Assembly (NCBI GenBank): GCA_947302515.1
Contig: CAMYVT010000006.1
Location: forward strand, 1 to 55,823
Direction: 5' to 3'
Source of the DNA: an uncultured Caryophanales bacterium
Lineage (GTDB): Bacteria > Bacillota_I > Bacilli_A > RF39 > UBA660
DNA length: 55,823 nucleotides
Part shown: positions 24,180 through 41,006 of the stretch, in pieces
How the letters are laid out: each line of letters starts with the position of its first letter
Numbering within the stretch: position 1 is the stretch's first letter
Program-made: the position numbers and the translations under genes
The notes under the pieces: generated by a model
What the model was told of the DNA's origin: nothing
The model's input: only the letters and a program-made list of their open reading frames with translations
The model's database searches: none

Positions 24180-26483
24180 ATGGAAAATTGGATGAATAAA
24201 AATATAAATAAAATAATAGCAATCTTCTTACTACTACAACCAGTACTAGATTTATTAACTGGAGTATGTATTAATACACTTCATATTAATATTACGATAG
24301 GAATAGTAGTAAGATTATTATTTCTAGCATTTATATGCTTCATAGTATTATTTATTTTTAAAAAGAAGAAATTATTAATTCCATATTTAATAATAGGACT
24401 CTATTTTATTTTATATACTGTAGGAATGATTATTTATAAAGATTCAAGTCTACTTACAGAACTTCAAAATCTAGTAAGAGCCTTCTATTTTCCAATACTA
24501 TTAGTATCATTATTCTCTATTAGAGATAAAATACGCATAAGTAATATGACTTTCTTAACAATGATTCTTCTATATATATTATTTATTTTTGTACCAACAA
24601 TAATAGGAATAGGTTATAAAACATATCAAATAACTAAAGTAGGTACTTTAGGATTCTTTAATTCTGCAAATGAAATAAGTGGAATAATATCTATTCTTAC
24701 TCCAATATTATTTGTAGTATTCTATAAATCAAGAAAACTAATACCAATAGTATTATTCTCAATTATGTACTTAATAGTAATACTAATGGTAGGTACAAAA
24801 ACACCATTATTATCATTAATTATAACAGTAGGTATAAGTATATTATATTTATGGTATTACTTATTTAAACAAAGAAATTATACTTATATAGTATCATCAA
24901 TAATTGTATTATTATTTGCTTCTATAGCAATGCTTTTAATAATACCCCAAACAAACTTTTATAAGAATATAAAAACTCATCTTAATTATTTAGGTCTAAA
25001 TAATATAACAGAAGTGTTTAAAGATGAAAAACTTGTAGATCATTTTATCTTTAGTTCTAGATTAAAATTCTTAAATCATAAAGCCTATATTTATAAAACA
25101 TCTAATACTTATGAAAAAGTATTTGGAATAGGGTATATTAATGATGATAGAGAAACTAAACAAATAGAAATGGATTATTTTGATATTTATTATAGTCATG
25201 GAATAGTAGGATTTACTATCTATTTTGTAACTATATTATATGTACTATATAAATTATTAGAATATAGAAAAGATAGAAAATATGAGAATGGAATGATTGT
25301 GTTATCACTATTCTTAATAATATTCTTAGCGTTCTTTACGGGTCATATCCTAACCGCCCCATCAGTAAGTATAGTAGTAGTATTACTATTCTTAAGTGTA
25401 GAGCAAAGAAAGAAAAAAGATTTATTATTTACAGGATACAATCTAGGAATAGGTGGTATAGAAAAAGCTCTAATAAACTTATTAAAGAATGTTGATTATA
25501 ATAAGTATAATGTAACACTAGTATTAGAGAAAGAAGAAGGAGAATTACTAGATAGAATAAATAAGGAAGTAGTAGTTAGAGAAGTAAAAGTAAGTGAGAA
25601 TAAAGATTTTATCATAAGAAAAGCAATAAACTTTATTCGTAAATTAATATTTAAAGTATTTGAGTATGATAACTATGATTTTAGTTGTTGTTATGCAACA
25701 TATAGTTATAGTGGTAATAAACTAGCACGAATAGCTTCTCTAAATAATTCTCTATATGTACATAGTGATTATAAGTATGTATTTGAAACAGAAGATGAGT
25801 ATAAAGAGTTCTTTAATACAAGAAATATTTATGATTTTAATAAGATAGTATTTGTCTCAAAAGAATCACAATCTTCATTTACAAATATCTATAAAGAATT
25901 AAAAGATAAAACACTAGTAATAAATAACTTTATAGATATCAAAGAAATACAAGATAAAAGTAAAGAAGAAATAGAAGTAAAAAAGCAAAAGAATAAAAAA
26001 CTATTTGTCTTTGTAGGAAGATTAGATGATTCATCAAAGAAAGTATCACGTGCAATCAATTTAGTAAAAGAAATAAAAGATATAGAATTATGGATAGTAG
26101 GAGATGGACCTGATCGTAATAGATATGAAAATGAAGTAGAAAAACTAAAACTACAAAAAGAAATTAAATTCATAGGTAGTAAGATTAATCCATATCCATA
26201 TATGAATGAAGCGGATTATATCATTTTAACTTCAGATTATGAGGGATTCCCAGTAACATACTTAGAAGCTATAGCTTTAAAGAAAGATATAATTACAACA
26301 ATTCCTACAAGTGATGAATATATTGATATCAAAGAATATGCTTATATCATTTCTAAAGATAAAAAAGAAATGGTAAAAGAAGTAAAAGAAATATTAAAGA
26401 ATAAAAAAGATACTAAAAAAATAGATCTTATAGAAATACAAGAGGATAGAAAAGAAGAATTATATTTATTATTTAATAATTAA
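24180..26483 (+). CDS. O-antigen polymerase/ligase-like membrane domain fused to a GT4 glycosyltransferase
   Basis: 767 residues. The N-terminal 410 residues form 10-12 membrane segments with a larger outside loop near residues 270-340, the layout of Wzy/WaaL (O-antigen ligase family) proteins, which join lipid-linked glycans outside the cell. From about residue 415 the chain becomes a cytoplasmic GT-B enzyme of family GT4: GYNLGIGGIEKALINLL at the start, KKLFVFVGRLDDSSKKV before the donor domain, WIVGDGPDRNRYENEV, and the EX7E signature EGFPVTYLE. Both functions in one polypeptide is unusual. It forms its own transcription unit at the left end of the glycan locus. The polymerase-versus-ligase choice cannot be made from sequence. 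Confidence 0.82.
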   Translation: MENWMNKNINKIIAIFLLLQPVLDLLTGVCINTLHINITIGIVVRLLFLAFICFIVLFIFKKKKLLIPYLIIGLYFILYTVGMIIYKDSSLLTELQNLVRAFYFPILLVSLFSIRDKIRISNMTFLTMILLYILFIFVPTIIGIGYKTYQITKVGTLGFFNSANEISGIISILTPILFVVFYKSRKLIPIVLFSIMYLIVILMVGTKTPLLSLIITVGISILYLWYYLFKQRNYTYIVSSIIVLLFASIAMLLIIPQTNFYKNIKTHLNYLGLNNITEVFKDEKLVDHFIFSSRLKFLNHKAYIYKTSNTYEKVFGIGYINDDRETKQIEMDYFDIYYSHGIVGFTIYFVTILYVLYKLLEYRKDRKYENGMIVLSLFLIIFLAFFTGHILTAPSVSIVVVLLFLSVEQRKKKDLLFTGYNLGIGGIEKALINLLKNVDYNKYNVTLVLEKEEGELLDRINKEVVVREVKVSENKDFIIRKAINFIRKLIFKVFEYDNYDFSCCYATYSYSGNKLARIASLNNSLYVHSDYKYVFETEDEYKEFFNTRNIYDFNKIVFVSKESQSSFTNIYKELKDKTLVINNFIDIKEIQDKSKEEIEVKKQKNKKLFVFVGRLDDSSKKVSRAINLVKEIKDIELWIVGDGPDRNRYENEVEKLKLQKEIKFIGSKINPYPYMNEADYIILTSDYEGFPVTYLEAIALKKDIITTIPTSDEYIDIKEYAYIISKDKKEMVKEVKEILKNKKDTKKIDLIEIQEDRKEELYLLFNN

Positions 26484-26546: not shown

Positions 26547-27464
26547 ATGCCAAAATTCAGTATTATTATTCCTGTATATAATGTAGAGGAATATATAAAG
26601 GAATGTTTAGATAGTGTAGTAAATCAAACTTATAAAGATTATGAAGTAATCGTAGTTAATGATGGTACTAAAGATAAGAGTATGGATATTGTTAAAAAGT
26701 ATGATGTTAAAGTAATAAATCAAGAAAATCAAGGCTTATCAGCAGCAAGAAACAATGGAGTAAAACATTCTAAAGGAGATTATTTATTGTTTTTAGATAG
26801 TGATGACTCTTATGAAAAAGATTTATTAGACAGATTAGAAAAAGCAATTACAAAATTTAAACCAGATATAATTAGATTTCAAATTCAAGAGATGTATGAA
26901 GATAAATCAAAAAAAGAATTCAATGAAGTAGGATTTGAACCAGTTAAAGGAGATAAAGCCTTCTCAAAGATTTGTAAATATCATTTCGTAGAAAACGCAT
27001 GGTGTTATTGTATAAAAAGAAGTTATTATGAAAAAGAAAAATATGAATTTGCTAAAGGTATGATCCATGAAGACTTTGGTCTTATGCCATTAGTTATTAT
27101 GAAAGCTAAAAGAGTAATGTCTATTGAAGATATAGGATATAATTATAGACAAAGAAATAATAGTATTATGAGTGATAAGAACTATGAAAAAACTAAGAAA
27201 AAAGTATCTGACTTCTTACATCACTATATATTCTTAAATAATGAAATTAATAAGACTAATTTAGACTCTAAAGTATTTAAAAGTTTTATCTCTAATTCAC
27301 TAATCTTAAAGATAACAGAATTAAAAGGAAAAGATTATAAAGAATATAAAAAGATATTAAAAGAAGAAAAAGTATATAACAATTTATTAACTGATACATT
27401 AAGTAGAAAGATTAAAAAGGTATTATTAAGAATAAGTCCAAAATTATATTATAGACACAAATAA
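26547..27464 (+). CDS. Family 2 glycosyltransferase
   Basis: Cytoplasmic GT-A enzyme that adds a sugar from a nucleotide donor to a growing glycan; donor and acceptor unknown. The N-terminal catalytic domain shows FSIIIPVYNVEEYIKECLDS, VNDGTKDKS, the LSAARNNGV segment and the metal-binding LFLDSDD. The C-terminal 100 residues are helical and basic, as in EpsJ-like enzymes, with no membrane segment. GAGGTGAT precedes ATG 26547. It begins an operon of three genes (GT2, polyprenyl-phosphate GT2, HAD phosphatase) ended by the hairpin at 28982. 305 residues, normal for the family. Confidence 0.88.
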   Translation: MPKFSIIIPVYNVEEYIKECLDSVVNQTYKDYEVIVVNDGTKDKSMDIVKKYDVKVINQENQGLSAARNNGVKHSKGDYLLFLDSDDSYEKDLLDRLEKAITKFKPDIIRFQIQEMYEDKSKKEFNEVGFEPVKGDKAFSKICKYHFVENAWCYCIKRSYYEKEKYEFAKGMIHEDFGLMPLVIMKAKRVMSIEDIGYNYRQRNNSIMSDKNYEKTKKKVSDFLHHYIFLNNEINKTNLDSKVFKSFISNSLILKITELKGKDYKEYKKILKEEKVYNNLLTDTLSRKIKKVLLRISPKLYYRHK

Positions 27465-27474
27465 GGAGAATACT

Positions 27475-28419
27475 ATGTTAAAGAAAGAAAAAATATCATT
27501 AATAATTCCCTGCTTTAACGAAGAAGAATCAATCCCATTATTTTATGAAGAAACAAATAAAATAACAAAAAAAATGAAAAACATAGATTTTGAATTAATC
27601 TTCGTAAATGATGGCTCTAAAGATAATACTCTTCCAGTCTTAAAAGACTTATCAAAGAAAGATAAGAGAGTAAGATATATTTCTTTTTCAAGAAACTTTG
27701 GTAAAGAAGCAGGAATGTATGCGGGTCTTGAAGCCGTAACAGGAGACTATGCTGCTATTATGGATGCCGACATGCAAGACCCACCAGAAAAATTAATTGA
27801 GATGTATGATATTATTAAGAATGAAGATTATGATTGTGTTGCTTTATATACTGAATCTCATAAAGGATATAATTTTATTAGAAAAGGATTAACAAAAATT
27901 TGGTATAAATTAATTGATAAGATATCAGATTCTAAACAAGTTGCTGGAGCTAGGGATTTTAGATTAATGACTAGACAAATGGTGGATGCTATTTTAGATA
28001 TGAAAGAATATAATCGTTATACCAAAGGTATGTTTGGTTTTGTAGGATTTAATACTAAATGGTTAGCCTATGATGCTCCTGAAAGAGTAGCAGGAACAAC
28101 TAAATTTAATTTAAGAAAACTAATAAAATATGCAATGGAAGGAGTAATGGCTTTTTCTACAACACCACTTTTATTATCAGCTTATGTTGGAATGATATTC
28201 TGTTTAATTGCTTTTATTGCTATTATCTTCATAATTGTAAAAACATTAGTATGGGGAGATCCAACATCGGGTTGGCCTTCAATGGCCTGTATAATTATAT
28301 TTGTTAGTGGGGTACAATTATTCTTCTTAGGAATAATAGGAATGTATCTATCTAAAATATATTTAGAGGTAAAGAAAAGACCTGTTTATATAGTAAAAGA
28401 AACAGAAAAGACTAAATAG
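27475..28419 (+). CDS. Polyprenyl-phosphate glycosyltransferase (GtrB/DPM1-like GT2)
   Basis: Predicted to move a sugar from a nucleotide donor to polyprenyl phosphate, making the lipid-linked donor used by GT-C enzymes outside. The GT-A domain has SLIIPCFNEEESIP, FVNDGSKDN, SFSRNFGKEAGMYAG and MDADMQDPP, all typical of the GtrB/DPM1 group, plus the late R-rich segment RVAGTTKFNLRKL. Two C-terminal membrane helices (about residues 235-295) follow, as in GtrB. 314 residues, full length. AAGGAG lies 10 bases after the previous gene. A second enzyme of the same type is encoded at 31775, so the locus may charge two different sugars. No GtrA-type flippase is seen. Confidence 0.88.
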   Translation: MLKKEKISLIIPCFNEEESIPLFYEETNKITKKMKNIDFELIFVNDGSKDNTLPVLKDLSKKDKRVRYISFSRNFGKEAGMYAGLEAVTGDYAAIMDADMQDPPEKLIEMYDIIKNEDYDCVALYTESHKGYNFIRKGLTKIWYKLIDKISDSKQVAGARDFRLMTRQMVDAILDMKEYNRYTKGMFGFVGFNTKWLAYDAPERVAGTTKFNLRKLIKYAMEGVMAFSTTPLLLSAYVGMIFCLIAFIAIIFIIVKTLVWGDPTSGWPSMACIIIFVSGVQLFFLGIIGMYLSKIYLEVKKRPVYIVKETEKTK

Positions 28420-28427
28420 GAGTAATT

Positions 28428-28985
28428 ATGATTAATGCATATGATTTTGATGAAACAATTTATAATGGAGATTCATCCGTAGACTTTTATTTCTACTCTC
28501 TAAAAAGAAATAAAAAAGTATTATTACAACTACCAGTACAATTATGGGGAGTAATACTATATGTATTAAAGATAGTAGATAAAACAAAGTTTAAAGAAAA
28601 AGTATTTTCATATTTAAAAAGAATAGATAATGTAGATGATTATATTACAGACTTTTGGAAGATCCATAAGAAGAATATAAAGAAATGGTATTTAGATCAA
28701 AAAGAAAAAACTGATGTAATAATATCAGCATCACCAGAGTTTTTATTAAAACCATTAGAAAAAGAAATGAACTTCACTGTTATTGCAACAAAAGTAAATA
28801 AAAAGAATGGTATATTTGAATCAAAGAATTGTCATGATTATGAAAAAATAAAAAGATATGAAGAATTATTTAATAAAAAAATAAAAAAATTTTATACTGA
28901 TTCCATTAAAGCAGATAAAGCTATGCTTGAATATGCTAAAGAAGGATATGTAGTTAAAGGAGATGTTATAACAAAATATGAATAA
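28428..28985 (+). CDS. HAD-superfamily phosphatase (IB-type)
   Basis: 185 residues with all HAD motifs: DFDETI (motif I, nucleophile and acid aspartates), the Ser of ISASPEF (motif II), a lysine in the KKNGIFESK region, and YTDSIKAD (motif IV). The insertion after motif I is hydrophobic (VLLQLPVQLWGVILYVL) and may lie at the membrane. Similar small HAD-IB proteins are fused to UbiA-type phosphoribosyltransferases in some bacteria; here a UbiA of that kind is encoded at 32740. The enzyme could remove the 5-phosphate from a polyprenyl-phosphoribose intermediate. That is inference; another phosphate ester is possible. Confidence 0.8.
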   Translation: MINAYDFDETIYNGDSSVDFYFYSLKRNKKVLLQLPVQLWGVILYVLKIVDKTKFKEKVFSYLKRIDNVDDYITDFWKIHKKNIKKWYLDQKEKTDVIISASPEFLLKPLEKEMNFTVIATKVNKKNGIFESKNCHDYEKIKRYEELFNKKIKKFYTDSIKADKAMLEYAKEGYVVKGDVITKYE

Positions 28986-29008
28986 AAGGAATAATCCTTT
29001 TATTTTTT
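28982..29008 (+). terminator. Terminator after the HAD phosphatase gene
   Basis: 9-bp stem ATAAAAGGA (28982-28990), loop ATAA, TCCTTTTAT (28995-29003), then T-run. Confidence 0.85.
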
Positions 29009-29020
29009 ATGCTTTTTTTC

Positions 29021-29026
29021 TATAAT
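29021..29026 (+). promoter_or_regulatory. -10 element for the 29048 gene
   Basis: TATAAT at 29021-29026 with a T-rich, weak -35 zone lying in the preceding terminator. It falls downstream of an in-frame ATG at 29009, which supports ATG 29048 as the real start. Confidence 0.5.
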
Positions 29027-29047
29027 ATATATAAGGAATGTGAGATT

Positions 29048-31732
29048 ATGAAAAAACTGTTAAAAAATAAAAAACCAGAAGTATTATTATTTATCTTTTC
29101 ATTAGTTTTTCTATTAATTATTGGAATAATATTAAGCTATAATTTTAAAATGGGAGATAATTATAATTTATTATTTGATTCTGATACGGGTAGAGTAGTA
29201 GATGATGCTATTAGTTTGAATGCTAATCACTATAGATCAAGTGTTCATCCTTTATTTGTATTGTTTGTTCAACCAGTAGTATTTTTTATTTCAAGTATCA
29301 TTTTAAGTAAGAATTTATCATTAATAATACTCTCTGCTTTAGTATCATCAACATCAATATATTTCTTATATAAAATATTAGATATTATTAAACCAAATAA
29401 AAAACAAAATATAATTATTTGTTTAATATATTTATTCTCACTTTCAAATATTATTTTTACTGCTGGAATAGAGACCTATAATTTCGCAACTTTATTTCTT
29501 ATACTCATGTGGTATTTTTATTTAAAACAAGATAATAAACAGAAAAGTTTATATTTCTATATATTATTAATATTATTTGGAGTATTATCAATTTCATTTA
29601 TTATTACTAATGTATTTATCTATTTAATAATGATTTTATTGCTATTAATATCAAAGAAAATAAATATAAAACAAATAATAATAATAGGATTAATAACACT
29701 ATGTTTATCTTTTGGTCTAAGTATTGGTCAAAGACTAGTATTTCATACAACCCCATTATTATTTAAAATAGATACTCACGAAGAAATAAAATTTATTAAT
29801 AAAGAATTAAATATAAAAAATAAAATAAAAGAAGTAGTAGTAAATGATTATTATAATTCATTTATTGGAAATAATGTTCACTTAAATATAAACTATGGTA
29901 ATTCTTATAATGGTCAAAATTATGTTATAGCTTTTAACAATATGAGTATATTTAATTTTATTATTATGACAGCATTCTATATTATTTTAATATTCTTAGT
30001 AGCAAGAAATATTAAAAAGAAAAAGCTATTTAATATAGGTTTATTACTAGCATTACTATTTAATACAATATTACATATATTTTATGGAAACGAAACAGCA
30101 TTCTTATATTCACTACACTTTGTATATTTAATAATTATTCTATTTGGAATAAATCTATTACTTGAAGATAATAAAAAAATAAAGAAATATTCCTTTATTT
30201 TCTTATTGGTATTCTTAATAATAGAAGTATTAAATAATACATTAATATTTAATAATGTAATGAGTTATGTAAAAAAAATAATAGAAGGAAATACTTTAGT
30301 AAATAGTATAGGATTACCACTTACAATACTTTTAGAATTACTAGTAATTATTCTTGTTATAGGAATAATAATTATAGGTATAAAACTAATAAAGAAAATT
30401 ACAAATACAAAGAAAAAAGAAACAAAAATAATATTATCTTTAGCAATAATTCTATTATTCTTTTTAACAGAATGGATTTTTATTGGAATAGAAAATGTAG
30501 AAGATTATCATAAATTATTATGGATAAAATTAGAAGATAAAAATAAAAATTTTTCACCAATAGAAAAAATGGATTATGTAAGTAATGATTTTAAAAAATA
30601 TTTTGAATCAGAATTAAAAGAGTTAGAAGAATACAAAAAAGAATTAATTGATTTTAAAAATGAATATCAAACAATTGATTCTACAGCTCCTAGTTATTCA
30701 GAATACTATTATTTTGGTATGGCTAATAGAAGAAAACTAGTATATAGACCAAATAAAATAATAGATGTTGAAACAAAAGAAGTAGTGTATTCATTTGAAG
30801 AAAAAGATCATTTTATTATTCCTAATACTTATACAGTTTTAATAGAAACAAAAGATAAAGATTTTATAATGATTAAAGAAGATAAATATGGAGTACATTA
30901 CGTAGTAAATGGAAAAGATAGTATTATTAAAGGTACTGATAAATATCTTGAATTATTTAATTTTTCAAATGAAAAATATCAAAACATGAAGAAAGTATTA
31001 TATGGAGAAATACTATTTAATATTAAAGATAGTATTATTTATCCCAATATTATTGTTTATAATAAACCATGGTATAGAGATGCAGCTCTAACAACAATGG
31101 TATTACAAAAAACTCATAATACAGATTTAATTAAAGATTGGGTATCACAAATAGAAGATATTTATGACTATCAAAATGGTGGGGAAAAAGAACCAGATAA
31201 TTTAGGAGAATTACTATATATTATTTCTACTCAAGAAGAAAAGAATTATGATCTTATTGATAGAATTGAAAGAGAAGCAGAAAATATCGCTAAGTCTAAT
31301 AATAATGGATATTATATTTATGGTAAAACAGATACTGGAGATGAATTCTTGTATCAAAATTTATGGTATAAATTAGGAATAGAAAGTATAGGAAGAAAGT
31401 ATCACTTTAATTTAGATATTATTCCAGAAGATGCATATTCTAAAATGGCATGGTGGAGTAATTATGAATTAATTGATACTAATAATCAATTTGATGGAGA
31501 TTGTTATCCATATCTTAATATTGCTGAAAGACATAAATTAAAAAAAGGTAGTATTCCAATTAATAATAATTTATATCCATTATCATGGGAAGTAGGTGCA
31601 ACAGCAGCTAATTATGATGCTTATAGAGGAATAGATGATCATATGAGTGATGTTAAGGTTTCACCTCTTCATTCATGGTCTGCATCAGAGTTTCTATTAT
31701 TACTTTTAGAGGACTATCCTAGTTTGCAATAA
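29048..31732 (+). CDS. GT-C-like multi-pass protein with a C-terminal six-hairpin-glycosidase-like domain
   Basis: 894 residues. ATG 29048 is preferred over an in-frame ATG at 29009, which lies in the promoter. The first 480 or so residues carry about a dozen membrane segments. The first outside loop is acidic and aromatic (LLFDSDTGRVVDDAI; then SVHPLFVLFVQP), the pattern of GT-C enzymes of the PMT/ArnT type that use polyprenyl-linked sugars. A soluble outside part follows; from about residue 665 it reads KPWYRDAALTTMVLQK ... NGGEKEPDNLGELLYIIS ... WKLG-like helices ... PLHSWSASEFLLLLLED, suggesting an (alpha/alpha)6 glycosidase-like fold. One protein may thus both add and trim or recognise sugars outside. 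Neither activity is proven. Confidence 0.7.
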   Translation: MKKLLKNKKPEVLLFIFSLVFLLIIGIILSYNFKMGDNYNLLFDSDTGRVVDDAISLNANHYRSSVHPLFVLFVQPVVFFISSIILSKNLSLIILSALVSSTSIYFLYKILDIIKPNKKQNIIICLIYLFSLSNIIFTAGIETYNFATLFLILMWYFYLKQDNKQKSLYFYILLILFGVLSISFIITNVFIYLIMILLLLISKKINIKQIIIIGLITLCLSFGLSIGQRLVFHTTPLLFKIDTHEEIKFINKELNIKNKIKEVVVNDYYNSFIGNNVHLNINYGNSYNGQNYVIAFNNMSIFNFIIMTAFYIILIFLVARNIKKKKLFNIGLLLALLFNTILHIFYGNETAFLYSLHFVYLIIILFGINLLLEDNKKIKKYSFIFLLVFLIIEVLNNTLIFNNVMSYVKKIIEGNTLVNSIGLPLTILLELLVIILVIGIIIIGIKLIKKITNTKKKETKIILSLAIILLFFLTEWIFIGIENVEDYHKLLWIKLEDKNKNFSPIEKMDYVSNDFKKYFESELKELEEYKKELIDFKNEYQTIDSTAPSYSEYYYFGMANRRKLVYRPNKIIDVETKEVVYSFEEKDHFIIPNTYTVLIETKDKDFIMIKEDKYGVHYVVNGKDSIIKGTDKYLELFNFSNEKYQNMKKVLYGEILFNIKDSIIYPNIIVYNKPWYRDAALTTMVLQKTHNTDLIKDWVSQIEDIYDYQNGGEKEPDNLGELLYIISTQEEKNYDLIDRIEREAENIAKSNNNGYYIYGKTDTGDEFLYQNLWYKLGIESIGRKYHFNLDIIPEDAYSKMAWWSNYELIDTNNQFDGDCYPYLNIAERHKLKKGSIPINNNLYPLSWEVGATAANYDAYRGIDDHMSDVKVSPLHSWSASEFLLLLLEDYPSLQ

Positions 31733-31751
31733 AAGGCTTATCTGATATAAT
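31723..31751 (+). promoter_or_regulatory. Promoter of the 31775-39385 operon
   Basis: TTTGCA at 31723-31728 (inside the end of the upstream gene), 17 bases, TATAAT at 31746-31751 with TGA before it. Confidence 0.7.
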
Positions 31752-31774
31752 AACAAATAGAAAGTGGTGGTTAT

Positions 31775-32743
31775 ATGTTCTTTCATAAAGAACCAATTTT
31801 ATACGTTGTAGTACCTTGCTATAACGAAGAAGAAGTACTAGAAGAAACAACAAGACAATTAAAAAATAAAATGGAGAAATTAATAAAAGAAAAAACAATC
31901 TCTAATAAAAGTAGAGTTATGTATGTTAATGATGGTTCTAAAGATAGTACATGGGATCTTATTAAAGAAGTAAATAAACAAGAAAAATTATTTACAGGAA
32001 TAACTTTATCAAGAAATAGAGGTCATCAAAACGCCTTATTAGGTGGATTAATGACTGCTAAAGAATATGCTGACGTCGTGATTTCTATGGATGCTGATCT
32101 ACAAGATGATATTAATGCTATAGATGAGATGCTAATAAAGTATAAAGAAGGTTGCGATATAGTTTATGGAGTTAGAAGTGCTCGTAAGAAAGATACCTTC
32201 TTTAAAAGAGTTACTGCAGAAGGCTTTTATAAATTTATGAAAGCATTAGGAGTAGACTGTGTATATAATCATGCAGATTATCGACTAACATCAAAAAGAG
32301 TATTAGAGGAATTTTCTAATTATAAAGAAGTTAATTTATTTTTAAGAGGAATGTTTCCTCTAGTAGGATTTAAATCAGATATAGTTTATTATGAAAGAAA
32401 AGAAAGATTTGCTGGAGAATCAAAATATCCATTAAAGAAAATGTTAAATTTTGCCTGGGATGGTATAACATCATTCTCCGTAAAACCACTTAGATTTATC
32501 TGTATTTTAGGTTTTATTATATTATTTATTAGTATTGCTATTATGATTTATTCACTAGTTAGATATTTAACAGGAAATACTGTCTCTGGTTGGACATTCT
32601 TATCTATATCTATTTGGTTTATAGGTGGATTACAAATGATAAGTATTGGTATCATAGGAGAATACATTGGAAAAATGTATAATGAGACTAAACAAAGACC
32701 TAGATTTATTATAGAAGAGAACTTAGAGGAAAAGAAAAAATGA
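31775..32743 (+). CDS. Second polyprenyl-phosphate glycosyltransferase (GtrB/DPM1-like GT2)
   Basis: 322 residues, same architecture as the enzyme at 27475 but clearly diverged: LYVVVPCYNEEEVLEETT, MYVNDGSKDST, SRNRGHQNALLGGL, SMDADLQDD, and the late RFAGESKYPLKKM segment, then two membrane helices (about 240-300). It should load a sugar onto polyprenyl phosphate at the inner face of the membrane. It is the first gene of a six-gene operon (GT2, UbiA, GT-C, GT2, acyltransferase-GT-C, SGNH) with its own promoter. GGTGG precedes ATG 31775, and its end overlaps the next start by 4 bases. Confidence 0.87.
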   Translation: MFFHKEPILYVVVPCYNEEEVLEETTRQLKNKMEKLIKEKTISNKSRVMYVNDGSKDSTWDLIKEVNKQEKLFTGITLSRNRGHQNALLGGLMTAKEYADVVISMDADLQDDINAIDEMLIKYKEGCDIVYGVRSARKKDTFFKRVTAEGFYKFMKALGVDCVYNHADYRLTSKRVLEEFSNYKEVNLFLRGMFPLVGFKSDIVYYERKERFAGESKYPLKKMLNFAWDGITSFSVKPLRFICILGFIILFISIAIMIYSLVRYLTGNTVSGWTFLSISIWFIGGLQMISIGIIGEYIGKMYNETKQRPRFIIEENLEEKKK

Positions 32744-33612
32744 AAGATTATTTAAAATTAATTAGAGTAAAACATTGGTTAAAGAATGGTTTGGTATTTT
32801 TACCAATATTCTTTAGTATTAACGTCTTAAATAAAGACTTATTATTTACTAGTATTCTAGCATTCTTTATATTTTCAGTAACTGCTAGTATAGTTTATAT
32901 ATTAAATGATTTAGAAGATGTTGAAAAAGATAAAAAACATCCAATAAAAAAAGATAGACCACTTGCTAGTGGAAGAGTATCTATTAGAGAAGCAAAAATA
33001 ATAAAAGCAATATTATTAATTATTTTAGGTGGATTACTATATATTATTGCTACTAGAGTAGATTCAATCTGGGTATTATTAATACCAATAATTTATTTAT
33101 TATTAAATATTATTTATAGTAAATCATTAAAAAATATTCCAATCATAGATGTAGTAATAATTGTTATAGGATTCTTATTAAGAGTAATATATGGTGGAAT
33201 AGTTATTAATGTAGAAGTATCTAAATATTTATATTTAATGATTATTTTTGGATCATTCTTCTTAGGATTTGGTAAAAGAAGAAATGAAATAATTAAGAAT
33301 GGTGAAAAGAGTAGAGAATCTCTTTCTATGTATAATAAAGCATTCTTAGATAAGAACATGTATGTAGCTTTTGCTTTAGCAATTGTTTCATATACATTAT
33401 GGTGTGTTGATCCAACTACTATAGCTCATATTGGTAATGATTATATTTTTTGGACAATTCCATTATTAATTATTATCCTTCAATTATATAGTTTAAATAT
33501 TGAAGGAGATTCTCATGGAGATCCAGTAGAAGTAATTCTATCAGATAAAAAACTATTATGTGCTATAAGTATATATTTAATAGTATTAATAATAATATTA
33601 TATTTATTATAG
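32740..33612 (+). CDS. UbiA-family prenyltransferase of the decaprenyl-phosphate phosphoribosyltransferase type
   Basis: Multi-pass membrane enzyme of 290 residues. The aspartate-rich motif is NDLEDVEKD (56-64) followed by HPIKKDRPLASG, and the second conserved block is FGSFFLGFGKRRNEI ... RESLSMYNKAFL (170-202). The GKR-x2-E and R-x-SL-x2-Y pattern is what I associate with Mycobacterium Rv3806c-type DPPR synthases, not with menaquinone or heme UbiA enzymes. Such enzymes join polyprenyl phosphate to phosphoribosyl pyrophosphate, the first step to lipid-linked ribose or arabinose. In this locus it would supply a pentose donor to a neighbouring GT-C enzyme. ATG overlaps the previous stop (ATGA). 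No DprE1/DprE2 epimerase is in the window, so ribose rather than arabinose may be used. Confidence 0.83.
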   Translation: MKDYLKLIRVKHWLKNGLVFLPIFFSINVLNKDLLFTSILAFFIFSVTASIVYILNDLEDVEKDKKHPIKKDRPLASGRVSIREAKIIKAILLIILGGLLYIIATRVDSIWVLLIPIIYLLLNIIYSKSLKNIPIIDVVIIVIGFLLRVIYGGIVINVEVSKYLYLMIIFGSFFLGFGKRRNEIIKNGEKSRESLSMYNKAFLDKNMYVAFALAIVSYTLWCVDPTTIAHIGNDYIFWTIPLLIIILQLYSLNIEGDSHGDPVEVILSDKKLLCAISIYLIVLIIILYLL

Positions 33613-33625
33613 AAAAGAGAATAAT

Positions 33626-35242
33626 ATGAAAGAAATAAATATTTCAAAACAATTAGAAATACTAATAAAAGTATTAATAGTACTATCATTTGCTGTTTTA
33701 AGTTTAATATTAATGCATGATTTTAAATTAAAAATAGCAGTAATAAATGGTATATTGTGTTTAATAGTAGGAGTACTTGTATTCAAAAAGATTAGTATTA
33801 AAAAAATAACTATAAAGAAACTAATTATATCTTTATTAATAGCAGCCTATGTAGATACATTATTCATTACTATTTCACAAACTAGAATGATAGATATTAT
33901 TACTACTATTAATTTATATATTAATAGAGGATTTATTAATCAAATAATTCCTTATTTAATAGGAGTATTATCATATCCTGCTATAGTATTTTGTATTTAT
34001 TATTGGATTGAAAAACATCATCCTAAAGTAATACAAGAAGTTAAATCATTAGAAAAGAAAGAAATAAATTATTTAATAATAGTAGGTATACTATCACTAT
34101 TATTAGTAACATTTACTTTTACTTTTTCAACAGCTTTTTTAAATACAACATATGAAGATAGAGCAATTACTGATGTTATATATACAAGTGATAATGGAAC
34201 TATCTATGGAACAGATGCCTGGTTTAATATTCCACATCCAGAAAATGATATTAGACAACCACTATTTGGAATATTCTCTCTACCATTTTCTATTCCAGCT
34301 CATATTACTTCTGAATTAATATTCTTTGTACCAAAAGATGCTTGCTATGGAGTAGTATTATCAGTAATACAATTTTTATTGCTAGCTCTAACAACAATTA
34401 TGTTAGCAAGAATATTAAAATTAAAAGATTATCAAAAAAAGTATTTTTATGCTTTCTTTAGTTTAAGTTTTCCTTATATTATTTTTGGCTTATTAATAGA
34501 ACAATATGTAGTAGCATTATTCTATTTAATATTAACTATCTATGAATATGATAAATTAAAAGGAATAAATTATTCATATTTAGGATCTGTTTCAACACTT
34601 ATTACTTCAGGAATAATATTTCCTTTAATAACTAAGTTTAAAGATTTAAAAACTACAATTAAGAATTATAAAGATTGTTTTATATATTTCATAGTTGTAT
34701 TAGTATTAGGAGGACAATTTAGTCAAATACTAACTATTAATGAAAAAATGACTTACTTTATGTCAGATTTTGCAGGTAAACAATCATTACCTGAAAAGTT
34801 TTGTAAGTATACTACCTTTGTAGAATCAATATTTAAGATTACTCCAGGACATATAGAAAAGTTTTTAAATTATGATGCTTATAGATTACCTATTCCAGAA
34901 ACAATAAGTATTATAGGAATAGTTATTTTAGCGCTTGTAGTATTAAGCTTTATTCTAAATAGAAAAGAGAAAATGGCCTGGATATCAATTCTATGGATAA
35001 TTTTTTCTATAATAATACTATGTATTGTAGGTTGGGGAACAGTAGAAAATGGTTTAATATTATATAGTCTTTATTTCGCCTGGGCTTTTTACTTATTAAT
35101 ATATTTATTAATAAAGAAATTAATTCCAAATAAAAAATTATTCTCTAGTATAATGATTATACTAATAGTAGTAATGTTTATTTATAATAGTAAAGAAATA
35201 TTAAATATATTAGATTTTGCATTAACATATTATCGTAGATAG
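33626..35242 (+). CDS. Multi-pass membrane protein, GT-C-like, function unknown
   Basis: 538 residues with about 12 hydrophobic segments. A larger loop after the fourth or fifth segment holds YEDRAITDVIYTSDNG and FNIPHPENDIRQPLFGI, which has the acidic and aromatic make-up of the first outside loop of GT-C glycosyltransferases. I recognise no named family. It sits 13 bases after the UbiA gene, so it is the best candidate for an enzyme that spends the lipid-linked pentose made there. AGAG is a weak ribosome site before ATG 33626, but the frame and spacing fit the operon. Confidence 0.65.
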   Translation: MKEINISKQLEILIKVLIVLSFAVLSLILMHDFKLKIAVINGILCLIVGVLVFKKISIKKITIKKLIISLLIAAYVDTLFITISQTRMIDIITTINLYINRGFINQIIPYLIGVLSYPAIVFCIYYWIEKHHPKVIQEVKSLEKKEINYLIIVGILSLLLVTFTFTFSTAFLNTTYEDRAITDVIYTSDNGTIYGTDAWFNIPHPENDIRQPLFGIFSLPFSIPAHITSELIFFVPKDACYGVVLSVIQFLLLALTTIMLARILKLKDYQKKYFYAFFSLSFPYIIFGLLIEQYVVALFYLILTIYEYDKLKGINYSYLGSVSTLITSGIIFPLITKFKDLKTTIKNYKDCFIYFIVVLVLGGQFSQILTINEKMTYFMSDFAGKQSLPEKFCKYTTFVESIFKITPGHIEKFLNYDAYRLPIPETISIIGIVILALVVLSFILNRKEKMAWISILWIIFSIIILCIVGWGTVENGLILYSLYFAWAFYLLIYLLIKKLIPNKKLFSSIMIILIVVMFIYNSKEILNILDFALTYYRR

Positions 35243-35256
35243 AAAGAAGGGATCAT

Positions 35257-36195
35257 ATGACAGATATTAGTATTATAGTACCAGCATATAATGCTGAAAA
35301 ATATATTAGTAAATGTCTAGAATCATTAATAAATCAAACAAAAAAAGAATTAGAATTTATCATCGTAAATGACGGTTCAAATGATAATACTGAGAGTATA
35401 ATTAAAAACTATAAAGATAAAAGAATCAAATATTTTAAGAATAAAAATCAAGGTATTGGTAAAACTAGAAATTTTGGAATTGAAAAGTCTAATTCAAAGT
35501 ACATTATGTTTTTAGATAGTGATGATTATCTTGATAAAACTACTTGTGAAAAGATGTTTAATAAGATTGAGAATAATGATTTAGATATTGCTATCTGTGA
35601 TTTTTATAGAGAATACGATAATGGCAATATAGAAGAAGTACATACTGCTTCTTTTGAGAATTCTTCTTTGAGAGGTAATCCTGATATTATAAATGAGAAT
35701 TTATGTCCATGGGCTAAAATATATAAGAGTAGTTTAATAAAAGATGGAAATATTCGTTTTGTTGAGAATTTAAAGTACGAGGATGCTCCTTTTGTTATAG
35801 AAGCATATGTTAAAGCAAAGAAAATAGGTAAAATAGATGAATGCCTTAATTACTATTTAGTTCATAGTAATAGTGAAACTACTGTTAGAGATAGAAGATG
35901 TTTTGATATTTTAAAAATTATTGATAAAATAAGAACTATTACAAAAGACACAGAAGAATTAACTGAAAAGATTAATAAATTAACTGTACGTATGATTACA
36001 AATTATACTATTCAACAAAGAGTACAAGTTAATAATGATGTCGCAATGGAATTTATTGATAAAGCTTTTGCTTATCTTAAAAAAGAAGTTCCAGATTATA
36101 AAAAGAATAAATATTATGAAGGAAGAGGGGTACTTAGAAGAACCATTGAAAAGAGTAGGTTCTTAACTAAACTTTATTGTAAATTATATAAATAA
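35257..36195 (+). CDS. Family 2 glycosyltransferase
   Basis: 312 residues, single GT-A domain: ISIIVPAYNAEKYISKCLES, IVNDGSNDNT, GIGKTRNFGIEK and the metal-binding FLDSDDYLD. The C-terminal 100 residues are helical with a basic tail and no membrane helix. Adds one sugar to a cytoplasmic glycan intermediate; specificity unknown. It is related to but clearly different from the GT2 at 26547. 14 bases separate it from the upstream membrane gene, in the same operon; AGAAGGGAT precedes ATG 35257. Confidence 0.87.
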   Translation: MTDISIIVPAYNAEKYISKCLESLINQTKKELEFIIVNDGSNDNTESIIKNYKDKRIKYFKNKNQGIGKTRNFGIEKSNSKYIMFLDSDDYLDKTTCEKMFNKIENNDLDIAICDFYREYDNGNIEEVHTASFENSSLRGNPDIINENLCPWAKIYKSSLIKDGNIRFVENLKYEDAPFVIEAYVKAKKIGKIDECLNYYLVHSNSETTVRDRRCFDILKIIDKIRTITKDTEELTEKINKLTVRMITNYTIQQRVQVNNDVAMEFIDKAFAYLKKEVPDYKKNKYYEGRGVLRRTIEKSRFLTKLYCKLYK

Positions 36196-36218
36196 AATAC
36201 TATGAAAGGAGTTTTAAC

Positions 36219-38723
36219 ATGAATAAGAGAATTAAATATCTAGATGAATTAAGAGTATTTGCTATGATATTAATTATTGCCTTACATATAATCGCAATAT
36301 TTAATTATAAGTATATTGATATTAGTACTTTTAAATTCGCTCTTACTGTATTTTTAAGCTCCTTTACTAGAGTAGGAGTACCTATCTTCTTTATGTTAAC
36401 GGGAGTACTATTACTACCTAAAAAAGAAGAAAAGTACTCTGTTTTTTTTAAGAAAAGAGTAATGAGACTAATTATAGCTTATGTATTTTTTTCTTGCATT
36501 TATTATATATATCAATTAATAATGGGTATTAAAGTTTTTAATTTGTTTGAACTTATAAGAGAAATTACTTCATCACAAGTAGAATATCACTTATGGTTTA
36601 TGCCTGTAATAATAACTATATATTTACTTATACCTTTTATTAAGAAACTAGTAGATAACTTAAAAAGAGAAGATTTAAAAAGATTAATAATTATATTATT
36701 TATTACCGTAAATTGTTTTTATGGAATAAATGCTATAACTAATGTTTTTGGTTATGGAGTACTTAGTAGTTTTCTGTTACCCAAGCTATTAGGTTATATT
36801 AATTATTTACTTATTGGTTATTATATATTTAATAATGATTATAAAATAAATAAAAGATTAATAATTACTAGTATTATATCTATCTTATTAATTCCACTAT
36901 GTACATTATTTATTAGTAGAGGAAGTTTTCAAGAATTATTCCTAGATTCTATTTCTCCTTTAGTAGTTGCTCCTTCTATATTAGTATTCTTATTATTTAA
37001 GAATAAAAAGAAAAAAACACCTAATATTATTTCTAAATTTGTAAGCATTAATACTAATAATGTTTTCTATGTTTATCTAAGTCATGTATTATTCTTAAAT
37101 GTATTATTTCATCAAATAGAAACAAAAGTCTTAACAACAACATTTAAACAAGACTTAGGAATAATGTTATTACTATGGATTAGTGTATTAGTACTATCTT
37201 TCTTATTCTCTTATATTTATGTAAAAGTAAAAGATTTTATTAAGAATAATAGAGATAAAATTACTAAAATATTAATAAAATGTTTTTATCTTGTACTTAT
37301 ACTATTATTTATACTTATAATTATAAATTTATTAATAAATAAGTATCATTTTATTAATCTTAATTATTTATTATTTATTATAGGTTTATTTGTATTTATG
37401 TTTGTTTTTTATATGATTAATAAATATAAAGATACAATATTTAAAAATAAAATTATAAATATAGTACTAATACTTATATATATATCTTTTCAAATACTTA
37501 TAGCATATTTGTTTATGGTTTATCCATCATGGGATTTTGGTCAAATTTATGATATAGCAGTAAATTTTGCAACAAGTAATCATCCTACTTTTGGTAGTTC
37601 TTATTTATATGTATGTAGTAATAATATTATGTTTACTGTTATCTTAGAATTAATATTTAAACTATTATATTTAATAGGTATTAAAAACTTCTTAGAAACA
37701 GGAATAATAATCAATATTATTATGATTGATATTAGTATTATTTATACATATCTATTAATTAATAAGATAAATACTAATTATAGTAAACCATATCTTATAT
37801 TTATCTTATTGTTTTCACCATTAATTTTTTATATTCCTATATTTTATACAGATACAATATCTATGCCATTTATCATTGTACCTATATATTATTTATACTT
37901 ATATTTTTATAAGAAACAAAAAATTAGTTATTTAATAATATCAAGTATTATTTTAGGAATAGGATCTATGATTAAACCAACTATCTTAATATTATTAGTT
38001 GCTTTACTTATATATTTTGTATTAATAAATAATAAGAAGAATAATTACTATATTATTTTACCTATCTTAATAGGTTTAATAGTATTACCACTAATATTAC
38101 AAAAAGTATTTATTAATCATTTCTTTGATCAAGAATCTCTATCTAATTATAAAATACCTACAGTTCATTATATATTAATAGGATTAGAAAATAATGGAGA
38201 ATATAGTGAAAAGAGATATAAAGAGATTAATTCTTATGTAGGAGAAGATATAAAAGTAAAAGAAACTAAAATTAAGATTGATAAAAGAATAAATGAAATG
38301 ATTAAAAATAAAGAAATATTAGGTTTTTATAATAGAAAAATAGCTTATACTTGGACAGATGGAACATTTTTTTCATATGTTAAACTAAGTAGAAAACCAG
38401 TACATGAAAAATATTTACAATTTGTGTATTCCGAAAATAATAAAAATAGTATATACTGGTTATTGAGTAATGTAGAGTGGTTTATTGTTCTTGCTCTTAT
38501 GCTTATAGGTATTATTAAGAGAAAATATCTACCTAAAGAAATAAAAGAATTACAATTACTTATATTTATTAGTATATTTGGATTATTTTTATTTTTACTT
38601 ATATGGGAAACAAGATCTAGATATTTAGTAAATTATGTTCCTTTATTCTTAGTTAATGCCTATATAGGTTTGTGTGCAATAAACTCAGAGAAAAAGTTAA
38701 AAGATGGGAGAATAAAAAAGTGA
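36219..38723 (+). CDS. Acyltransferase-3 domain fused to a GT-C-like membrane domain
   Basis: 834 residues, AAAGGAG before ATG 36219. Residues 1-345 are an acyltransferase 3 (OafA/WecH-type) domain: YLDELRVFAMILIIALHI at the start, RVGVPIFFMLTGVLLLPK, YHLWFMPVIITIY and VFYVYLSHVLFLN, with about 10 helices. This family O- or N-acylates surface glycans. After a short basic linker a second set of about 10 helices runs from 355 to 815; its first outside loop (YPSWDFGQIYDIAVNFA) and a late loop (VHYILIGLENNGEYSEKRY) look like a GT-C mannosyltransferase-type enzyme. One chain may transfer a lipid-linked sugar and acylate it. No frame break separates the halves. The first half is firm, the second inferred. 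Confidence 0.8.
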   Translation: MNKRIKYLDELRVFAMILIIALHIIAIFNYKYIDISTFKFALTVFLSSFTRVGVPIFFMLTGVLLLPKKEEKYSVFFKKRVMRLIIAYVFFSCIYYIYQLIMGIKVFNLFELIREITSSQVEYHLWFMPVIITIYLLIPFIKKLVDNLKREDLKRLIIILFITVNCFYGINAITNVFGYGVLSSFLLPKLLGYINYLLIGYYIFNNDYKINKRLIITSIISILLIPLCTLFISRGSFQELFLDSISPLVVAPSILVFLLFKNKKKKTPNIISKFVSINTNNVFYVYLSHVLFLNVLFHQIETKVLTTTFKQDLGIMLLLWISVLVLSFLFSYIYVKVKDFIKNNRDKITKILIKCFYLVLILLFILIIINLLINKYHFINLNYLLFIIGLFVFMFVFYMINKYKDTIFKNKIINIVLILIYISFQILIAYLFMVYPSWDFGQIYDIAVNFATSNHPTFGSSYLYVCSNNIMFTVILELIFKLLYLIGIKNFLETGIIINIIMIDISIIYTYLLINKINTNYSKPYLIFILLFSPLIFYIPIFYTDTISMPFIIVPIYYLYLYFYKKQKISYLIISSIILGIGSMIKPTILILLVALLIYFVLINNKKNNYYIILPILIGLIVLPLILQKVFINHFFDQESLSNYKIPTVHYILIGLENNGEYSEKRYKEINSYVGEDIKVKETKIKIDKRINEMIKNKEILGFYNRKIAYTWTDGTFFSYVKLSRKPVHEKYLQFVYSENNKNSIYWLLSNVEWFIVLALMLIGIIKRKYLPKEIKELQLLIFISIFGLFLFLLIWETRSRYLVNYVPLFLVNAYIGLCAINSEKKLKDGRIKK

Positions 38724-39385
38724 AGAAAACATCAGTATTTATAACTATTCTATTATTGGTTTCTATAGTAATTGGTATTAATAAAATCAATGCATCAAGT
38801 TTAGGAGATATACCTACTAAAACAGAGAATATTACTAAAAATGAAAATATTGTATTTGTTGGAGATTCTATTTTTGATTGGTTTCCTACTGACAAAATAT
38901 TTAGTGATTTACCAATAGTAAATAGTGGAATAAGTGGTAATAAGACAACAGATATTCTTAATAATATGGAAAAGAGGATATATCAATATAATCCTACTAA
39001 AGTATTTATTCAAATTGGTACAAACGATTTAGAATGGGAAGATAGTGAAGAATTAAATGAACAGGTATATGAGAATATTGTTAAAATAGCAGAAGGTGTA
39101 AAAGCAAATCGTAAGAATAGTGATATATATATTATCTCAATCTATCCTGTTAATAATAATTTATATGGAGCACATGATAGACATATTCCTGAAATAAAAT
39201 CAGTAAATTCTAAATTAAAAAAGTATTGTGCTAATACAGAAGGAATAGAATATATTGATGCATTCAAGGATTTGATTAATAGTGAAGAAATGTTTGATGA
39301 GGATTATACTGACGATGGATTACATCCTAATGGTTTAGGTTATGCTAAAATAACTGAAATTCTTATGAAATATATTTATCAATAA
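38720..39385 (+). CDS. SGNH/GDSL-family hydrolase with N-terminal anchor
   Basis: Predicted extracellular esterase or acyl-handling enzyme of 221 residues. GTG 38720 overlaps the stop of the acyltransferase fusion (GTGA), and GGGAG at 38706-38710 is 9 bases before it; longer in-frame starts would run deep into the upstream gene. A hydrophobic N-terminus (about 5-19) is a signal peptide or anchor. SGNH blocks are all present: GDSIFDW (Ser), GISGNKTTD (Gly), QIGTND (Asn) and DGLHPNGLG (Asp-His). Acyltransferase 3 proteins are often fused to SGNH domains, so the pair probably works together on glycan acylation. Last gene of the operon. Confidence 0.87.
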   Translation: MKKTSVFITILLLVSIVIGINKINASSLGDIPTKTENITKNENIVFVGDSIFDWFPTDKIFSDLPIVNSGISGNKTTDILNNMEKRIYQYNPTKVFIQIGTNDLEWEDSEELNEQVYENIVKIAEGVKANRKNSDIYIISIYPVNNNLYGAHDRHIPEIKSVNSKLKKYCANTEGIEYIDAFKDLINSEEMFDEDYTDDGLHPNGLGYAKITEILMKYIYQ

Positions 39386-39483: not shown

Positions 39484-40227
39484 GTGGAAAAAGATATAGC
39501 AATAAAAGTAACACATGTATCAAAAGACTTTAAATTATATTATGATAAAGCACATACACTAAAAGAAAAATTATTATTCTTTTCGAGAAAAAATAAAGAA
39601 AAGGATCATATCTTACATGTATTAAAAGATATTAATCTAGATATACATAAAGGTGAAAGTGTAGCTTTAATTGGTACAAATGGTAGTGGTAAGTCAACAT
39701 TATTAAAATTGATGACTAAAATTATATATCCTAATAAAGGTAGAATTACAACTAATGGTAAATTAACATCATTACTAGAATTAGGAGCAGGATTCCATGA
39801 TGATTTTACAGGAAGAGAAAATATATATTTCAATGCATCAATTTTTGGATTGACTAGAAAAGAAATAGATAAAAAGATTGATGAAATAATTGAATTCTCT
39901 GAATTAGGAGATTTTATAGATAATCCAGTAAGAACTTATTCTTCAGGAATGTATATGAGATTAGCATTCTCTGTTGCAATTAATGTTCAAGCTGAAATAT
40001 TATTGATTGATGAAATCTTAGCAGTAGGAGATAATCATTTCCAAGAAAAATGTTTTAATAAATTAATAGAATTAAAAGAATCTGGAAAGACAATAGTAAT
40101 AGTTACTCATAGTATGCAACAAGTTAAGAGATTTTGTGATAGAGCAGTATGGTTATATCAAGGTGAAGTTAAAATGGATGGAAACGTTAATGAGGTTCTT
40201 GAAGAGTATAAAAGGGTTTGTGGGTGA
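39484..40227 (+). CDS. Polysaccharide ABC exporter, ATP-binding subunit (Wzt/TagH/RgpD-like)
   Basis: Drives export of a finished lipid-linked polysaccharide. GTG 39484 is preceded by GAGG at 39471-39474; a GTG two bases earlier is out of frame. The 247 residues hold a Walker A (GTNGSGKST), a signature (YSSGM), a Walker B (ILLIDEIL) and the H-loop (VTHSM). The insert LLELGAGFHDDFTGRENI and FSRKNK...LKDINLDI are marks of the TagH/Wzt/RgpD group. It lacks the long C-terminal carbohydrate-binding domain of some Wzt proteins, so export is probably not gated by a special chain end. The permease starts 5 bases after its stop. Confidence 0.92.
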   Translation: MEKDIAIKVTHVSKDFKLYYDKAHTLKEKLLFFSRKNKEKDHILHVLKDINLDIHKGESVALIGTNGSGKSTLLKLMTKIIYPNKGRITTNGKLTSLLELGAGFHDDFTGRENIYFNASIFGLTRKEIDKKIDEIIEFSELGDFIDNPVRTYSSGMYMRLAFSVAINVQAEILLIDEILAVGDNHFQEKCFNKLIELKESGKTIVIVTHSMQQVKRFCDRAVWLYQGEVKMDGNVNEVLEEYKRVCG

Positions 40228-40232
40228 TTAAG

Positions 40233-41006
40233 ATGAACGTATTTAGAGATTTATATAATTATAGAGAACTTCTAAAAACAAATGTTAAGAAAGAAATAAG
40301 AGGTAAATACAAAGGATCATGGCTGGGAGTAATATGGACATTCCTAAATCCATTATTAATGTTAGCAGTATATGCATTTGTATTTCCTTATATTTTAAGA
40401 GTAGAAGTCGAAAACTATACCATATTTATGATAGTAGCCCTAATTCCATGGAATTTCTTTACTACAGCAGTAGTATCTGGAACAAGTTGTATTAATATTA
40501 ATGGAATGATTCTTAAGAAAGTATATTTTCCTAGAGAAATAATTCCAATCTCAGTAACTTTATCACAATGTATTAATTTCTTAATAACTAGTATTATTAT
40601 GTTTATATTTATTCTAGTAAGTGGAGTTGGATTTTCAATTCATTTAGCATTTTTCCCAGTATTAGTATTAATTCAGTTTATATTAATTTTAGGAATTAAT
40701 TTCATACTTTCTAGTATTACAGTATTTGTAAATGATGTTGCTCATTTTGTTCAAGTTGGTATGACATTAGGTTTTTATGCAACACCAATTGTATATTTAT
40801 CATCAATGTTACCAGATCAATTTCAATGGGCAATGAGAGCTAATCCTATGGCAGTATTAGTAGAAGCTTATAGATCAGTACTTTATTATCATGAAATGCC
40901 AAATATGAAATGGTTAATAATCTGGACAATTATAAGTTTTGCATTACTAATATTAGGGTATATGTTATTTAAGAGATTAGAAAAAACATTCGTTGAAGAA
41001 TTATAA
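40233..41006 (+). CDS. Polysaccharide ABC exporter, permease subunit (Wzm/TagG/RgpC-like)
   Basis: Membrane half of the exporter. ATG 40233 is chosen because GGTGAT (40223-40228) precedes it at the usual distance. The family motif KKEIRGKYKGSWLGVIWTFLNPL at the N-terminus marks an ABC-2 type polysaccharide permease, here given by its first part KKEIRGKYKGSWLG; six hydrophobic segments follow, with GFYATPIVYLSSMLP and RANPMAVLVEAYRSVLYY near the end. 257 residues, normal size. With its ATPase it forms a two-gene operon closed by a strong terminator. The pair implies that the main polymer is completed inside and then exported. Confidence 0.92.
   Translation: MNVFRDLYNYRELLKTNVKKEIRGKYKGSWLGVIWTFLNPLLMLAVYAFVFPYILRVEVENYTIFMIVALIPWNFFTTAVVSGTSCININGMILKKVYFPREIIPISVTLSQCINFLITSIIMFIFILVSGVGFSIHLAFFPVLVLIQFILILGINFILSSITVFVNDVAHFVQVGMTLGFYATPIVYLSSMLPDQFQWAMRANPMAVLVEAYRSVLYYHEMPNMKWLIIWTIISFALLILGYMLFKRLEKTFVEEL

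Follow-up and report, generated by a model that had tools for sequence, protein, structure and literature searches.

A Bacilli glycan locus predicted to make and use lipid-linked ribofuranose, with relatives in which the phosphatase appears fused to membrane proteins

The DNA analyzed here, which we call the window, is the whole 55,823-nt stretch of contig CAMYVT010000006.1 (GCA_947302515.1). The cluster under study lies at 26547–39385 and contains ten open reading frames (ORFs), all on the + strand and all recovered at the coordinates given beforehand by a first-pass annotation. It includes a HAD-IB phosphatase of 185 aa (28428–28985) followed by GTC1 (29009–31732), a GT-C glycosyltransferase whose C-terminal part (residues 567–907) is an alpha-rhamnosidase-like domain; by GtrB2 (31775–32743), a GtrB/PgfS-like polyprenyl-phosphate glycosyltransferase that overlaps the start of the next gene; by a UbiA-fold protein of 290 aa (32740–33612); and by a further GT-C glycosyltransferase, GTC2 (33626–35242, core about 142–538). 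Another GtrB/PgfS-like enzyme, GtrB1 (27475–28419), precedes the phosphatase. Very probably, this cluster makes and uses lipid-linked ribofuranose destined for a surface glycan, with the UbiA protein as a predicted DPPR-synthase-like polyprenyl-phosphate phosphoribosyltransferase, the HAD as the predicted 5-phosphatase of the ribose lipid, and GTC1 and GTC2 as candidate pentosyltransferases. Below, L, G and P numbers label loci, genomes and the fusion-length proteins found with the HAD of L015. The nearest UbiA relatives in genome contigs come from metagenome-assembled genomes of rumen Bacilli (76% identity in L001, 78% in L004).

The UbiA protein carries the motifs NDLEDVEKD and GKRRNE...RESLSMY noted in the first-pass annotation, and matched Pfam UbiA with 77.8 bits (cut-off 34.2). 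Its best NCBIfam models are those for DPPR synthase, with 220.5 (NF008977), 195.5 and 146 bits. The ‘UbiA family prenyltransferase’ model PRK08238, which we take to be the HAD-UbiA fusion type, gave 170.9 bits, over model positions 193–478 of 482 only. Other UbiA families scored 67 bits (PRK12884), 37 bits (4-hydroxybenzoate), 25 bits (heme O) or less. When compared with PDB, two decaprenyl-phosphate phosphoribosyltransferase sequences came first, at 6e-34 (8j8j) and 2e-25, followed by 4od4 at 4e-4.

Eleven residues are reported to contact phosphoribosyl pyrophosphate (PRPP) in Rv3806c: R22, K28, Y70, N73, D77, K87, R90, Q135, Y138, K143 and Y157 (PMC10994848). After transferring these positions through the PDB sequence alignment, we found nine of them identical in the window protein (R9, K15, Y53, N56, D60, K70, R73, Y126 and K131). 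The same nine, that is, all but Q135 and Y157, were invariant in 50/50 distinct locus UbiAs, a set that includes the window and was picked with a UbiA model built for this analysis; Q135 is replaced by N in 50/50 and Y157 by F in 49/50. Regarding the six residues mutated by Kelly 2024 (PMC11127046), five were present in 69/69 aligned copies, duplicates included, and the sixth was E in 67 and D in 2. As a contrast we used eight other UbiA proteins from two Bacteroidota genomes, paralogues that we read as quinone/heme-type and whose single-column alignment is unsure: K28 was lysine in 0/8 and Y70 tyrosine in 1/8. N73, D77, Y138 and others are common to the wider UbiA set and not specific to the locus proteins, and the second UbiAs of two Bacilli genomes (L096 and L097) retain the K28 lysine, so that this lysine alone is no proof.

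A first UbiA tree with all 14 paralogues was set aside for its very long branches. In the final tree of 33 rows, with four paralogues omitted and the locus UbiAs thinned, the locus proteins formed a group of 24, including PAR_L100 of G195, apart from the Bacteroidota paralogues (support 89/94, below the tool's starred level). Together, these comparisons support placing the UbiA protein among the PRPP-type polyprenyl-phosphate phosphoribosyltransferases rather than with quinone or heme models, in line with its initial assignment to the Rv3806c type. The locus UbiA is also the sole UbiA match in 20 of the 25 genomes G001–G025. Nearest to the locus group, with weak support (85/64), were L095, L098 and L099 (from G014, G184 and G272), a second UbiA group of about 310 aa with a KRYAE motif. 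These proteins retain most PRPP residues, with G at the Q135 position and N at the Y157 position, and are possibly another lipid phosphoribosyltransferase.

The HAD gave 45.5 bits to Pfam HAD (cut-off 27), and its catalytic positions D6, D8, T10, S102, K140 and D163 were invariant in an alignment of 17 sequences, which bears out its description as a HAD-IB phosphatase with full motifs. A recognizable HAD was present in 21 of 29 UbiA loci, including the Bacteroidota loci L027 and L028, where it is a weak relative (25–30% identity) yet a clear Pfam HAD. Among the eight loci lacking it (L013, L014, L017, L018, L021, L024, L025 and L029), L018 and L025 are cut short where their contigs end; for L013, L014 and L017, the HAD is encoded elsewhere in the genome. 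We then measured co-occurrence in 288 genomes from the order of G001, a set that leaves the window's own genome outside. UbiA was found in 37, reduced to 36 by dropping G168 (weak, 3e-4), and HAD in 72, weak matches in G261 and G159 retained; 31 genomes had both. HAD was thus present in 31/36 UbiA-positive vs 41/252 UbiA-negative genomes (odds ratio 32, Fisher p 9e-17, uncorrected for kinship), which is more than chance. In the 31 genomes, the two genes lay on the same contig within 4 kb in 26 and within 40 bp in 18, and on different contigs in five. The proposal survived both refuting tests set out in the first-pass annotation, one on the grouping of UbiA and one on HAD-UbiA co-occurrence.

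Regarding the membrane proteins, the first-pass annotation counted three as GT-C-like. AlphaFold2 models aligned with VIA-align gave GT-C folds for GTC1 and GTC2, which are mutually related by profile (95.5%). The third, at 36219–38723, turned out to be an acyltransferase-3 domain (Acyl_transf_3, 121.7 bits) followed by a GT-C-like part that matches PMT_2 (35.4 bits, cut-off 26.1) and TIGR03766 (70 bits, cut-off 500). The two proteins described as GtrB/DPM1-like keep that description, with PgfS scores of 288 bits for GtrB1 and 246 bits for GtrB2, both below the cut-off of 500. GtrB1 is probably a separate hexose-type donor enzyme.

In relatives, the HAD, predicted to finish the ribose lipid, often forms one protein with a membrane module of the type expected to spend it. 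A single protein in L015 joins HAD (1–182) to the GTC2 family (190–728), one in L016 joins HAD to the GTC1 family, and L003 (two proteins), L006, L019, L020 and L022 encode a HAD with about 500–580 further residues. We also found HAD-GTC1 in L076, HAD-GTC3 in L078 and HAD-GTC2 in L113, with the HAD confirmed by Pfam in all three. Searching a database limited to fusion-length proteins with the L015 HAD gave 127 matches, of which the 120 listed were classified with models built here, partly from proteins counted with them. Among these 120, HAD was joined to the fold-tested GTC1 or GTC2 families in 28; to GTC3–GTC5 membrane modules of putative GT-C nature in 59, with GtrA between in five; and to YfhO in six, one of them with GtrA. 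Seven more were HAD-GtrA with an unassigned part, 14 were HAD with an unassigned part and six were others. The database listing annotates HAD and GtrA together in 14 of the 120.

An independent Pfam check of ten fusions found HAD with GtrA in five, among them P0075 (with PMT_2), P0070 (with YfhO) and P0090 (with a LANC-like part). YfhO was joined to HAD in P0061 as well as P0070, and P0073 is a HAD-acyltransferase. The HAD-SGNH architecture that Pfam gave for P0033 was also seen in P0044 and P0045, the three proteins measuring 415–424 aa with an SGNH esterase domain. HAD-GtrA proteins adjoin UbiA in L072, L073, L074 and L075, with both domains above Pfam cut-offs in 4/4; the L074 ORF as called here lacks the HAD front. 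Fused and unfused forms are interspersed in the HAD tree, which makes it likely that fusion took place several times independently. Our literature searches brought up nothing that pointed to HAD-GT-C fusions; the supplement of Kelly 2024 (Figs S11 and S12) may show related architectures.

We propose a route of four steps. Going by strong homology and the conserved PRPP site, the UbiA protein would move ribose-5-phosphate from PRPP to a carrier lipid, presumably undecaprenyl phosphate. The HAD would then take off the 5-phosphate inside the cell, as its motifs, linkage and fusions suggest for this predicted substrate. Turning the lipid outward would fall to a flippase, with the GtrA family as its likeliest source to judge from the fusions in relatives. 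Finally, GTC1 and/or GTC2, with their GT-C folds, may pass the pentose from this putative donor to an exported surface glycan as the presumed acceptor. In relatives, the predicted dephosphorylation and transfer steps, and in some proteins the flipping step too, are combined in a single chain that begins with the HAD. Because GT-C proteins have their N-terminus in the cytoplasm, the phosphatase of such a fusion would sit inside the cell.

Several observations weigh against this reading, and we set them beside the explanations that they would favor. Each step of the pathway in this lineage is a prediction from genes. The UbiA protein falls below the curated DPPR-synthase cut-offs (220.5 vs 234 and 195.5 vs 207 bits), which none of the UbiA matches in the 288 genomes attains. 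As a member of the UbiA superfamily it does have the first aspartate motif of that group; however, model scores, PRPP residues and tree all contradict an aromatic prenyltransferase role. A quinone or heme role was rejected on these grounds, and we regard any aromatic prenyltransferase as extremely improbable. The HAD is well under its NCBIfam cut-offs (52 of 98 bits), is missing from 5 of the 36 UbiA-positive genomes and occurs without UbiA in 41 of 252. Of twelve fetched UbiA-less loci, seven place it next to a PF00953 (TagO/WecA-like) gene (L060, L063, L064, L065, L067, L068 and L069; all seven neighbors Pfam-scanned), four have it as a HAD-GtrA fusion with no UbiA seen, and the remaining one has neither; P0113 is itself a PF00953-HAD fusion. 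The TagO-like neighbors make the substrate of the HAD less certain. It could be a general phosphatase of lipid carriers or lipid-linked sugars, with the UbiA product dephosphorylated by another enzyme. This we consider quite unlikely, given how often HAD and UbiA lie within 40 bp of each other and given the HAD tree, in which HADs linked to PF00953 cluster together with P0113 (98/88) and the window HAD belongs to a different clade, with 22 members (100/98). The latter consists of members from UbiA-bearing loci or genomes or of fusions. The bootstrap of this tree is not fully settled. The separation suggests a side branch, with the 5-phosphatase role of the window HAD still a prediction.

The donor used by the GT-Cs is the next point of doubt. 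Foldseek alone gave no GTC2 match at 1e-3, and UbiA is not followed by GTC2 in L001 and L018. GTC1 adjoins GtrB2 in the window and ten other loci (L001, L004, L006, L007, L008, L009, L012, L014, L019 and L025), so that it might use the GtrB2 donor. Both window GT-Cs could then draw on hexose lipids from the two GtrB-like enzymes, the pentose lipid being spent by a GT-C elsewhere, an arrangement we find doubtful. Relatives of GTC1 are fused to HAD and adjoin UbiA with no GtrB2 in the mapped stretch (L016 and L076), and those of GTC2 are fused to HAD (L015 and L113) or adjoin UbiA (L074 and L077). The ORF at 33626, initially proposed as the transferase, remains a candidate and is not the only one: both proteins have GT-C folds, relatives fuse HAD to either family, and the close relative L001 lacks GTC2 after UbiA and retains a GTC1-type GT-C directly after the HAD. 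As to the flippase, Pfam and NCBIfam scans recognized none among the ten locus proteins. GtrA is present in 27 of 28 related genomes, where it may serve other sugars; a role in flipping lipid-P-sugars has been proposed for GtrA-family proteins of Gram-positives (PMC7389260). The sugar itself could also differ, if the same donor pathway fed epimerases encoded elsewhere in the genome that yield arabinofuranose or xylofuranose before transfer. The xylose-type system does have an epimerase (Kelly 2024, PMC11127046). In Bacteroidota L027 and L028, genes of the same UbiA family stand in the order UbiA, DprE1-like, DprE2-like, HAD; the DprE1-like proteins scored 400 and 449 bits (cut-off 500), and the DprE2-like ones 193 and 178 bits (cut-off 250), below their scores of 293 and 296 with the SDR model PRK07102. 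However, a DprE1 search of the 288 genomes, which may be incomplete, returned one match of 17.6 bits in a 311-aa frame, with DprE2 and the xylose-type epimerase not searched. The search worked on controls, Corynebacterium glutamicum among those recovered, with one control above cut-off. FAD_binding_4 in G001–G025 occurred as single frames of 299–319 aa, the length of MurB, in 22 genomes, as a 363-aa frame in one, and was absent in two. We thus judge epimerization improbable: with no DprE1 above 18 bits, ribofuranose rather than arabinose is predicted, and of the two pentoses first suggested, ribose is favored and arabinose has become unlikely. D-ribofuranose itself is the likeliest sugar.

If the lipid-linked ribofuranose reading is right, uncultured gut-type Bacilli with small genomes should display ribofuranose on a surface glycan; the reading also singles out the enzymes to test. 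A broader proposal, to which we give an even chance, is that the pentofuranose pathway of gut Bacilli is modular, with the 5-phosphatase rather than the synthase as its movable piece: fused several times to different GT-Cs and to GtrA, it would form single chains that dephosphorylate, flip and transfer lipid-linked ribose. If so, dephosphorylation would take place inside the cell, coupled to flipping and transfer. Natural fusions allow the order and side of these events to be examined; on which side the epimerases of mycobacteria work is described as a matter for more study (PMC11127046). The HAD family could also be a wider search key, marking candidate pentose transferases in the absence of a UbiA domain.

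The rest of the cluster fits a glycan locus. Family-2 glycosyltransferases at 26547–27464 (PF00535, 128.9 bits) and 35257–36195 (PF00535, 138.6 bits) are assigned from context to the glycan backbone. An SGNH esterase/acyltransferase-like gene at 38672–39385 (PF13472, 78.8 bits) overlaps the end of the acyltransferase-3 fusion, and together these two (36219–39385) suggest O-acylation of the glycan. Upstream, at 24180–26483, a single protein combines O-antigen ligase-like and glycosyltransferase group 1 parts. Downstream lies an ABC exporter, with an ATPase at 39484–40227 (234 bits to the teichoic-acid exporter model, cut-off 538) and a permease at 40218–41006 (no NCBIfam match at 1e-20). Three consecutive genes at 41170–44149 encode an FnlA-like enzyme (534 bits vs a cut-off of 730), a protein assigned by eye as RmlD-like, which matched nothing in NCBIfam at 1e-20, and a WecB-type epimerase (244 bits, above the cut-off of 210). 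Such a series suggests what is presumably UDP-FucNAc synthesis. Further on, ferredoxin, FrhB-like and polysaccharide pyruvyl transferase domains are joined in one protein (47130–49436), and a large surface protein (51027–55214) has Big_2 and choline-binding repeats and a family 25 glycoside hydrolase. The gene after it, with similar repeats by eye, runs past the window end.

The first-pass annotation took a ribose- or arabinose-decorated surface glycan in this lineage to be probably new, which needs correcting: the pathway was published in 2024 with Gram-positive candidates, Bacillus included, and is hence not new in kind (Kelly 2024, PMC11127046). What we add is the occurrence of HAD and UbiA as two genes, the chains joining HAD to GT-C or to GtrA and a membrane protein, and a Bacilli setting without recognizable DprE1. 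The closest parallel is the three-component pentofuranose system of Citrobacter youngae O1/O2, where a UbiA-fold phosphoribosyltransferase, a HAD and a GT-C likewise sit in a surface glycan cluster; there, synthase, phosphatase and GT-C steps were assayed and the flippase was left unproven (PMC11127046). In C. youngae, HAD and UbiA form one protein and there is a small transporter gene, whereas the window has separate genes and no recognized flippase, and its relatives fuse the HAD to GT-C or GtrA instead (PMC11127046). With Rv3806c and the mycobacterial arabinan pathway the locus shares the UbiA fold, most PRPP residues and GT-Cs resembling Aft and Emb in fold. It differs in that no DprE1 above 18 bits was found in the order searched and in its carrier, presumably undecaprenyl; the mycobacterial phosphatase, as the same source presents it, is unrelated to HAD (PMC11127046). 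Pseudomonas pilin arabinosylation also has a DPPRS-like UbiA, PPPRS, proposed to feed glycosylation, with a different phosphatase and pilin as acceptor, and one P. syringae candidate carries a HAD at the UbiA end (PMC11127046). Finally, CsbB-GtcA-YfhO glycosylation of lipoteichoic acid similarly combines a lipid-P-sugar synthase, a putative GtrA-family flippase and a membrane transferase, its donors being GlcNAc or galactose lipids, unlike the pentose lipid proposed for the window (PMC7389260).

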